Shown here: piece after piece, positions 14,024 through 15,933 of the stretch
Layout of the letters: each line of letters begins with the position of its first letter
Position numbering within the stretch: the stretch's first letter is position 1
Notes under the pieces: generated by a model
What the model saw: the letters and a program-made list of their open reading frames with translations, nothing else
Told to the model about the DNA's origin: nothing
Databases searched by the model: none
Position numbers and translations under genes: made by a program
IMG/VR virus record: IMGVR_UViG_3300027841_000055
Span: 1-42,580 of that record
Reading direction: 5' to 3' (one strand)
Length of the DNA stretch: 42,580 bases
DNA from: a virus

Positions 14024-15933
14024 AAGCAGTTGAGGCCGCCCTTATGGCAAAAGCACGGGCGCTGGGGCCGAGACAAAAACAGCTTCGCCTCCCGCCTCCC
14101 CCGGCCGTGAAAATCCCGGTGGAATTGGAACGCCAATACTATAAAGATCTGCGAGCCGAGGTTGTGGCCCGCCTCGGCAGAATCACCGAGCGCATTCTCG
14201 TGCCCGCCCTCCCTTCCCTTCTCAGGGGAGCGCGGGAGGATCTGCCCACGGTTGACTCGGCGGACGCCCGGCGGCTTGACTCATACACTCGTGAGCTTGA
14301 TGTGCTTATGAATGGGATGAGGATTGCCTACGCCACGGAATTGACGCCCGATGAAATCGAAGCCCTTGCAAGAAAATATGCGATCAGGGGCGAGAATTGG
14401 AACAAAACCGATCTCGCAAAATCCCTGCAGCGCGTCCTCGGGATCAACCCGCTTGTCGCCGAGCCTTATTTGCCGGCAGTCATGCGCCAGTTTATTGACG
14501 AGAACACTAACCTCATTCGCTCAATTGGTTCGGAATTCTTTGGAAAGATCCAGCAAGACACCTATAAATATATTCAAGAAGGCGTTTACAACAAGGAATA
14601 CGCGAAGCAAATTAGCGCGGAATTCTCTGAGGAATTCAAGCGCCAATATGAGCGGGGCATTCTGAAGCGCCGGGTGACAAATGCCGACGCAAGGGCTCGC
14701 CTCATAGCTCGGGATCAGATCTCAAAATACAACGGACAGTTGAACCAAACGCGGCAAACTGCACTCGGGATCACAAAATACCGTTGGGTGACCGTTGGGG
14801 ATGATCGCGTCCGAGAATCACACCGCTCAAAAAACGGCAAGATCTACTCATGGAACGATCCACCCGCCGATACGGGGCATCCGGGGGATGACTACCAATG
14901 TTTTCCGGCTGACACTTCAGTTGACCTTTGTTTTGATGCAATGAAAGGTTTCCGCCGTTGGTATGACGGAAAATTGGCCTTTATCGTCACGGATTCTGGT
15001 GAATCGGTCAGATGCACACCTAATCACCCATTTCTCACCAACCGAGGATGGATTGCCGCAAAGGATCTCAAGGAAGGAGACTATCTCTTCAAGATTTCCC
15101 AAAAAACACTCGTCCCGTTGGAAGTCAATATTTACAAATGCAAAACCACGATTGACCACAAATTCAGACTTCTTGAAAAATTTGGGATTGGTCAAACGGC
15201 TAGCGGCACGCTTAGAGACTTCCACGGCGATGGAACCGAAAACGAGATCGATGTTGTATCGGCCCAACGCAACCTGGTGGGAGGAATGAATTCCCTTCAA
15301 AGCCAGGGCCGCCATCAATTCGGATTCTCCGAACCCGACTCTCCGGGAGCGGCTCGCAGCAATCTTTTCAACGGTCTCATTGCTCTTCTTTTTCCCTTTG
15401 CTCGCCTTGTGTGCCTTATCAGTCAAGCTCATTCTTTCTTCCTTGGAAAGCCGAGCCATCCTGATAAAACCCGCCTCGCTTATGTCCCTAATAGTGACTC
15501 CATTACGCCGCAAAATTCTTCTAATCGGAGTCCTAGAAACCCCTACCTCGATACTGATCGCCAATTCGCTGACGCCAGCCTGATACATCGAAACGATCTT
15601 GGCCTGGTCGAGTTTGAGGGGGGAGCAATCCCTTCGGAATTTATTGATCCCAGGATTGATCCCGAATTCTCTCAGTTTCTCGCTCAGATTGCTGTAACAG
15701 ACTCCCAACTTCTCGGCGACTTCCTTCAGAGTAAGCCCTTCGGATATGAGCTTTGCCGCATATCTGAGGTTAGTTTCCGTGAATTTTCCGGCCATGTTTA
15801 CAACCTCGAAACGAAAAAAGGATGGTTCATTGCCCAGGACTTTATCACGAAAAACTGTCGCTGTACATCCGTTGCCGTTTTCGACGAGGGAGTGACAGAA
15901 AACCCGACACTATTGGGCTTATTGAATTCGTGA
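14020..15933 (+). CDS. MuF/SPP1 gp7-like head morphogenesis protein interrupted by an intein
   Basis: Minor head protein made after the portal. The 637-codon precursor should splice to about 318 residues, the usual size for this family. ATG 14020 is preferred over 13987 because it forms an ATGA with the portal stop and follows AGGGAG. The N-extein ends in the family motif region: WVTVGDDRVRESHRSKNGKI, then HPGDDYQ. The C-extein resumes with CRCTSVAVFDEG, so the joined motif reads DDYQ-CRC as in uninterrupted homologues. The intein takes residues 294-612 of this numbering. Splicing must work for the phage to make a normal head protein. Confidence 0.9.
   Translation: MKAVEAALMAKARALGPRQKQLRLPPPPAVKIPVELERQYYKDLRAEVVARLGRITERILVPALPSLLRGAREDLPTVDSADARRLDSYTRELDVLMNGMRIAYATELTPDEIEALARKYAIRGENWNKTDLAKSLQRVLGINPLVAEPYLPAVMRQFIDENTNLIRSIGSEFFGKIQQDTYKYIQEGVYNKEYAKQISAEFSEEFKRQYERGILKRRVTNADARARLIARDQISKYNGQLNQTRQTALGITKYRWVTVGDDRVRESHRSKNGKIYSWNDPPADTGHPGDDYQCFPADTSVDLCFDAMKGFRRWYDGKLAFIVTDSGESVRCTPNHPFLTNRGWIAAKDLKEGDYLFKISQKTLVPLEVNIYKCKTTIDHKFRLLEKFGIGQTASGTLRDFHGDGTENEIDVVSAQRNLVGGMNSLQSQGRHQFGFSEPDSPGAARSNLFNGLIALLFPFARLVCLISQAHSFFLGKPSHPDKTRLAYVPNSDSITPQNSSNRSPRNPYLDTDRQFADASLIHRNDLGLVEFEGGAIPSEFIDPRIDPEFSQFLAQIAVTDSQLLGDFLQSKPFGYELCRISEVSFREFSGHVYNLETKKGWFIAQDFITKNCRCTSVAVFDEGVTENPTLLGLLNS
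14899..15855 (+). mobile_element. Intein (Hint domain), 319 aa, in the MuF-like gene
   Basis: Splicing domain blocks are visible. Block A is CFPADTSVDL with Cys1 (codon 14899-14901). Block B is CTPNHPFLT with the TxxH (about 15013-15039), followed by GWIAAKDLKEGDYLF. Blocks F/G are GHVYNLETKKGWFIAQDF and ITKN with the terminal Asn at 15853-15855. The +1 extein residue is Cys (15856-15858). The residue before the terminal Asn is Lys, not the usual His. About 220 residues between blocks B and F show no LAGLIDADG or HNH motif. The endonuclease function instead appears on the opposite strand (14917-15795). Insertion at the invariant CRC of a structural gene is typical of inteins. Confidence 0.93.
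14917..15795 (-). CDS. Putative homing endonuclease encoded antisense inside the intein
   Basis: A 292-residue protein on the strand opposite the intein, occupying 879 of its 957 bp. ATG 15795 has GAGG (15804-15807) 8 nt upstream, placed in the codons for intein block F. Residues 8-45 (LTLKEVAEKLGVCYSNLSEK) and 62-105 (ELAISIEVGVSRTPIRRIL) are two helix-turn-helix units. Residues 128-152 are a basic linker. The nuclease part has GESE (Glu157), HQVALGRYNIDLVFG (Gln174, Asp183) and IAVEVSK (Glu192), resembling Vsr/EDxHD-like homing endonucleases. HTH repeats plus this nuclease is a known homing endonuclease layout. It would cut intein-less alleles and so spread the intein. Long antisense frames do occur by chance in this genome, but none of the others has these domains and a ribosome site. 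Confidence 0.8.
   Translation of the reverse strand: MAGKFTETNLRYAAKLISEGLTLKEVAEKLGVCYSNLSEKLREFGINPGINKFRRDCSPLKLDQAKIVSMYQAGVSELAISIEVGVSRTPIRRILRRNGVTIRDISEAGFIRMARLSKEERMSLTDKAHKASKGKKKSNETVEKIAASRSRRVGFGESELMAALALKGIHSSHQVALGRYNIDLVFGSIAVEVSKRAASRLTNPKFFKKSEFVVNRGFAFVNIDFQRDECFLGNLEEIVSFLEILCGNPSSVGEKWVIRCASDRFTRIRDDKGQFSVIPTAETFHCIKTKVN

Follow-up and report, generated by a model that had tools for sequence, protein, structure and literature searches.

A viral head-gene intein with a conserved antisense gene for its putative homing nuclease

Introduction

To which strand does a conserved protein motif belong when both strands are open in the same codon register? The question arises at an intein in the minor head protein gene of the virus record IMGVR_UViG_3300027841_000055, which was analysed here over its full length of 42,580 bases and is called the window. 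An earlier note on this DNA had remarked that a sense string of the intein, at 15220-15258, mirrors the core of a nuclease readable on the minus strand. Our data suggest, with a probability of about 0.88, that the sense strand encodes a self-splicing intein in the head gene and the antisense strand its homing nuclease, and that this arrangement is conserved. Both frames are open in register, selection acts on the antisense frame in the middle of the intein and on the sense frame at its ends, and the antisense protein is predicted to fold with high confidence. Moreover, the codons at the nuclease start and its ribosome site are biased, free-standing relatives of the nuclease exist, and intein-less alleles occur with near-identical flanks.

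Two genes in one codon register

The interrupted host gene (13987-15933, plus strand) encodes a MuF/SPP1 gp7-like minor head protein (PF04233, E 2.2e-18; TIGR01641, E 6.9e-17), and its reading frame is open over 648 amino acids. The intein borders were read directly from the sequence. It comprises 319 codons (14899-15855, plus strand), from Cys1 at 14899 to Asn319 ending at 15855, followed by a Cys codon (15856-15858). With the intein alone as query, PF14890 (Intein_splicing) matched above cut-off (E 5.6e-9) and TIGR01445 (intein_Nterm) matched as well. The splicing motifs appear in the order CFPAD, TPNHP, GHVYNLE and KN before C; that is, an N-terminal Cys, a TxNHP motif in blocks A/B and blocks F/G ending in Asn and then Cys are all present. 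The intein is predicted to splice.

On the minus strand an open reading frame (ORF) in the intein's codon register begins with the ATG at 15795 and ends with the TGA at 14917 (14917-15795; 292 codons plus the stop), hence the entire nuclease gene lies inside the intein. Its product has homologues in phages. Translation of both strands of 15220-15258 bore out the mirror relation: identical triplets read FHGDGTENEIDVV on the plus strand and YNIDLVFGSIAVE on the minus strand, the latter holding D183 and E192 of the nuclease. Among the 68 members of alignment A6, conservation of the antisense protein is highest in this stretch. D183, A190 and E192 are invariant, Y180 (97%), N181 (96%) and V191 (94%) nearly so, and E157 and Q174 just outside the stretch reach 99%. 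In the sense frame DFHGDG...(I/V)xVV is kept family-wide, and the codon bin with FHGDG...IDVV is the most conserved one of the intein middle.

Predicted fold of the antisense protein

The structure of the antisense protein was predicted from the family alignment using AlphaFold, with a mean predicted local distance difference test (pLDDT) of 92.8 and a predicted template modelling score (pTM) of 0.66. In the model two helix-turn-helix (HTH) domains are followed by a nuclease domain of mixed alpha/beta type and a hairpin at the C terminus. The first HTH domain (residues 7-43, 15667-15777, minus strand; helices 7-18, 23-30 and 34-43) gave RWP-RK/HTH matches and resembles the DNA-binding domain of GcrA (VIA-align Z 6.8). 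The second (residues 64-97, 15505-15606, minus strand; helices 64-72, 77-84 and 88-97) matches PF13384 (HTH_23) above cut-off with E 4.1e-7.

The nuclease domain (residues 152-248, 15052-15342, minus strand) carries E157, Q174, YNxD183 and AVE192 and was assigned by profile and structure matches. Aligned with VIA-align, the model resembles E. coli Vsr (Z 11.2 for 1cw0, 10.6 for 1vsr), the catalytic domain of I-Bth0305I (3r3p_A, Z 9.1) and 3hrl (Z 8.1); a profile search with the antisense family matched 3r3p and 3hrl at E 7.5e-6 and 1.5e-5, respectively. The predicted fold is Vsr-like. PF18741 (REase_MTES_1575) was considered as a family name and set aside: it was matched by 12 of 19 members with E up to 1 (best 6.6e-6), below cut-off where scored. 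The C-terminal beta-hairpin (residues 255-291, 14923-15033, minus strand) lies opposite intein blocks A and B. Its two strands are predicted at pLDDT ~87-96 and the region is dual-coded, with constraint in both frames.

Open frames across the family

The earlier note had further supposed that antisense endonucleases could be widespread in one intein family. Searching phage genomes with the antisense protein (tblastn) returned homologues in 124 records. In 28 records they span 80% or more of the protein, and most face a head protein on the other strand. In the first 17 intein-bearing loci, from Edwardsiella, Klebsiella, Vibrio, Haemophilus, Gordonia, Idiomarina, Cronobacter, Salmonella, Pantoea and Pseudomonas phages and the virus Rctr197k, both frames are open. 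None of the annotation tables of intein-bearing phage records that were examined lists an antisense nuclease gene. As a side observation, intein-bearing head proteins of Salmonella phages (hits H110, H122 and H128) carry the label NAD+--asparagine ADP-ribosyltransferase, apparently a misannotation.

Neither of the window's two proteins, used singly, gave a match in viral_contigs, and alignment A1 as a whole was too diverse for use as a query. Sub-alignments were scanned against viral_contigs and genome_contigs instead, leading to 177 loci in total. At 171 of these nuclease-found loci the N- and C-terminal intein parts lie opposite in the shared codon register with zero sense stops. The remaining six comprise two free-standing nuclease copies and four loci in which the match begins no more than 170 bases from the end of the locus sequence at its start, where the intein is probably truncated at its C end. 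Within the first 25 sense codons and the last 20, which lie beyond the nuclease gene or at its margin, antisense stops are frequent; the interior is free of them in 169 of the 171 loci. The two loci with an interior stop (L055 and L056, at sense codon 136, the sense frame being open) apparently represent one lineage, probably a decaying nuclease within a still-splicing intein.

A second survey was blind to the nuclease and used the Hint N-terminal part alone as query. Among the nearest 80 of at least 562 loci, and hence for the nearest Hint relatives of the family, 67 inteins were complete and distinct, and in every one of them the antisense nuclease lies in register, without stops in the sense frame or in the antisense interior. 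The supposition of a widespread arrangement is thus well supported by both surveys, and a majority of members with opposite-strand stops, which the earlier note had named as the outcome contrary to it, is not seen.

Open frames alone could have a trivial origin. The antisense ORF might be a by-product, open by chance or through the composition of the sense gene and never made into a protein, and antisense frames in this register are indeed often open in GC-rich DNA. For the window alone the chance is on the order of 1e-3 (~1.6e-3 for the sense frame given the Leu/Ser content of the nuclease, 1.4e-3 for the reverse). Against a by-product, the frames are open even at loci with a GC content as low as 37%, the antisense protein is predicted at the pLDDT given above with Vsr-like nuclease matches, and free-standing homologues exist with many stops opposite. 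These are found in Acinetobacter phage IME285 (L003, 455-1345) and on contig L057 (2947-3804); no intein lies opposite either, and the facing frame has 12 and 5 stops, respectively. They are a possible source or escape form of the nuclease. For the sense frame, 543 stops were expected in the middle across 131 loci and none was observed.

Selection in the two frames

The substitution pattern was evaluated in 16 disjoint pairs of related sequences as differences per site at sense codon positions 1/2/3. The Hint N part yields 0.111/0.040/0.184, the Hint C part 0.062/0.037/0.173 and the extein control 0.135/0.100/0.332. In the intein middle the values are 0.237/0.068/0.126. Since sense position 1 is antisense position 3, the middle evolves as an antisense gene and the ends as a sense gene. 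The mode switches near codons 75 and 270.

Counting single-base changes gives the same picture. In the middle, 417 are silent only in the antisense frame and 117 only in the sense frame, against an expectation of roughly equal counts. For the final 20 codons, which the nuclease gene does not cover, the respective counts are 5 and 57. Hint N, with 52 against 125, is constrained in both frames. Chance openness, which had been our initial suspicion, is rejected on this pattern, in which the middle varies at sense position 1 and not at position 3. Together with the codon bias described below, this leaves the by-product explanation with a negligible share of the probability.

For the most part, then, the intein middle is carried as a passenger by the opposite strand. 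The suspicion that the conserved sense motif at 15220-15258 is a shadow of antisense residues is corroborated: the variable codon position in the middle is sense position 1, that is antisense position 3, and mean amino-acid identity there is 0.339 in the antisense frame versus 0.209 in the sense frame.

Might the sense middle nevertheless be functional, as a linker or an unfamiliar sense endonuclease, with both frames selected throughout? AlphaFold on the sense intein alignment returned a mean pLDDT of 65.1, with about 90-98 across most of both Hint ends. The N-terminal splicing part (codons 1-75, 14899-15123, plus strand; blocks A and B with TPNHP) is predicted at 89-98 over residues 1-60, and the C-terminal part (15709-15855, plus strand; blocks F and G) at 93-97 over residues 281-318. 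Between them (15124-15708, plus strand) extends an open sense frame without known domain. Residues 81-120 reach 62-93 and codons 76-105 change less at position 1 than most of the middle, which favours a function; these residues lie opposite the catalytic ones, and may be a real sense structure or again a shadow. Residues 121-280 drop to 33-56, and sense conservation stays below antisense conservation in the middle. Moreover, a sense-strand endonuclease was searched for in Pfam/TIGR-type domain libraries and no such family was found, so that the feature expected of a conventional endonuclease intein is missing from the sense protein. We therefore regard a functional sense middle as very unlikely.

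Start codon and ribosome site inside Block F

On the opposite strand, the start codon of the nuclease (15793-15795, minus strand) reads as CAT, the His codon of Block F. Slightly upstream, a ribosome-binding-site-like GAGG (15803-15806, minus strand) is the reverse complement of the Block F Asn-Leu codons, and GAG(G/A)TT precedes the nuclease start in most of the 17 loci. Codon usage was counted in the 99 loci where an H-V-Y-N-L-E type motif could be recognised; another 43, whose motif differs, were excluded, and hence the figures hold for the motif-bearing majority. The Block F His is CAT in 89 and CAC in 10 (ATG or GTG starts), compared with 239 CAT and 377 CAC for extein His. Likewise the Block F Leu is CTC, giving GAG, in 84 of 99 loci versus 634 of 3,109 extein Leu codons. 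These biases argue against a mere by-product; the antisense gene is putatively transcribed and translated. The Block F overlap goes beyond the earlier note, as do the free-standing relatives and a second, unrelated antisense nuclease.

Empty sites and other host genes

Intein-less relatives of the window's MuF protein are common. When the flanks of the Gordonia intein were joined, phages such as Jabberwocky matched all 117 residues in one piece with 98.3% identity; those Gordonia junctions are therefore without intein. The element also occurs elsewhere. In the virus Rctr197k it resides in a different host gene, coding for a dCMP deaminase (PF00383, E 5e-11), and in Mycobacterium phage Sejanus and Escherichia phage Ec1-ASingh (L179 and L180) at other head-gene positions. 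The Sejanus gene has no MuF match in Pfam, hence its identity rests on the record annotation (capsid maturation protease). This distribution would fit homing of the intein.

Does the nuclease still home?

Several observations weigh against an intein with an active homing nuclease in the window. The penultimate His before the terminal Asn is absent (ITKN followed by C, 15850-15858). It is also missing (KN, SN or RN) in L002, L004, L007 and others, while several members end in HN before C. The penultimate His is usual in inteins and not universal, hence its absence does not exclude splicing. Foldseek E-values against Vsr-like structures are weak (0.026 to 3r3p), although the VIA-align Z scores are good. 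A search of the minus strand near the nuclease start gave no sigma-70-like promoter. Finally, GGxWH after AVE, which is present in many relatives, is absent from the window nuclease, which could be less active or inactive.

The latter raises the possibility that the antisense gene is real and no longer homes, being a regulator or a decaying relic retained because the sense frame must stay open. Its HTH domains are like those of regulators and of transposase DNA-binding domains, and the lineage with an internal antisense stop and an open sense frame fits a relic, as does the missing GGxWH. Yet E157, D183 and E192 are conserved at 99-100% in 68 members, purifying selection on the antisense frame in the middle is strong, and presence and absence among near-identical exteins fits active homing. 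A gene that has lost its homing role hence appears unlikely, if somewhat less so than a functional sense middle. The antisense nuclease has the conserved acidic residues of a Vsr/EDxHD-type enzyme and is predicted to cleave DNA.

A second antisense nuclease

The Gordonia phages Lennon and Barsten carry a different intein at the MuF site that is used by Vivi2. Opposite it lies a putative LAGLIDADG-like nuclease gene (Lennon, L178, 2483-3193, minus strand; Barsten is L182). It was assigned by similarity to I-MsoI (E 6.1e-4, residues 41-65 only) and to phage endonucleases annotated as free-standing (E 6e-6 to 2e-5). No Pfam match was obtained at E 0.1, and a viral_contigs scan returned no additional members. 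Over 160 codons of the intein middle, Lennon and Barsten differ at 45 first, 5 second and 10 third positions of the sense frame, indicating that the antisense frame is constrained. The C-extein differs at 17 sites over 470 codons. The inteins are more diverged than their flanks, which fits separate acquisition. Judged by similarity, this nuclease would be LAGLIDADG-like and unrelated to the Vsr-type one, in the same antisense position. The portal gene of Mycobacterium phage Cane17 (L181, 845-4540), read by eye, appears to contain an ordinary in-frame sense LAGLIDADG intein.

We consider it likely that strand-opposed inteins form a general class of mobile elements. Its hallmarks would be an independent homing endonuclease gene lying codon on codon in antisense, at least two unrelated nuclease families, and dual-coded splicing blocks in which intein catalysis, nuclease start and C-terminal hairpin share the same bases.

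Proposed mechanism

Reading the sense strand would give a head-protein precursor whose Hint ends co-fold, excise the intein and restore the minor head protein, so that splicing renders the insertion into the head gene harmless. Reading the antisense strand, from its own start and ribosome site in the reversed Block F, would give a nuclease of 292 residues with two HTH domains and a Vsr/EDxHD-type catalytic domain. This enzyme is proposed to recognise and cut the intein-less MuF site of a co-infecting phage. Repair of the break from the intein-bearing genome would then copy the intein, and hence both genes, into the empty site. The middle sequence would be set mainly by the nuclease, and the first and last parts mainly by the intein; since the middle has to be translated, it is kept without sense stops. 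Our guess is that the antisense placement uncouples nuclease expression from that of the abundant late capsid protein.

Comparison with known systems

The annotated "head protein" includes ~200 residues that are mostly a reverse-strand shadow. This is a warning that a motif in a database protein may be conserved on behalf of the opposite strand. The locus is a naturally occurring example of two proteins dual-coded in antisense across ~290 codons. Since hundreds of sequences support it, overlapping genes, strand choice and uncoupled nuclease expression become testable with existing phage pairs.

Both parts are of known kinds, a Vsr/EDxHD-like enzyme and a Hint intein. The split inteins of the "fractured genes", reportedly described by Dassa et al. 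in 2009, are said to have a free-standing Vsr-like endonuclease gene between their halves, without overlap. They would share with the present element a Vsr-like nuclease that is a separate gene within the intein locus. Unlike in those, the intein here is whole and the nuclease overlaps nearly all of it in antisense.

Conventional homing inteins of the LAGLIDADG/HNH kind (PI-SceI and the archaeal VMA inteins, PMC8966425; also the Cane17 portal intein) likewise have a Hint domain inserted in an essential gene at a conserved motif, hold the endonuclease gene within the intein borders, and are present or absent among close relatives. Their endonuclease is fused in frame and is described in a review as translated in fusion with the intein (PMC3943268), whereas the present nuclease has a gene of its own on the other strand, with the sense middle for the most part a passenger. 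In the open-access literature, no description of an endonuclease gene lying antisense within an intein was found, though an earlier mention elsewhere is possible; the words antisense and opposite are absent from a survey of mycobacteriophage inteins (PMC5050341).

The EDxHD/Vsr-like homing endonuclease I-Bth0305I (PDB 3R3P), classed with the group I intron endonucleases (PMC3943268), similarly joins a Vsr-like catalytic domain to DNA-binding modules. It differs in that the present nuclease gene is antisense in an intein and its DNA-binding part consists of two N-terminal HTH domains. Antisense homing endonuclease genes as such are known from nuclear group I introns, namely Dsq.L2066 and Dir.S956-2 of Didymium (PMC9548176), where the endonuclease gene also lies on the strand opposite the self-splicing element and the host gene. 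There, it forms a large insert within a peripheral segment of a ribozyme intron in rDNA; here, both strands are protein-coding and share their codons.
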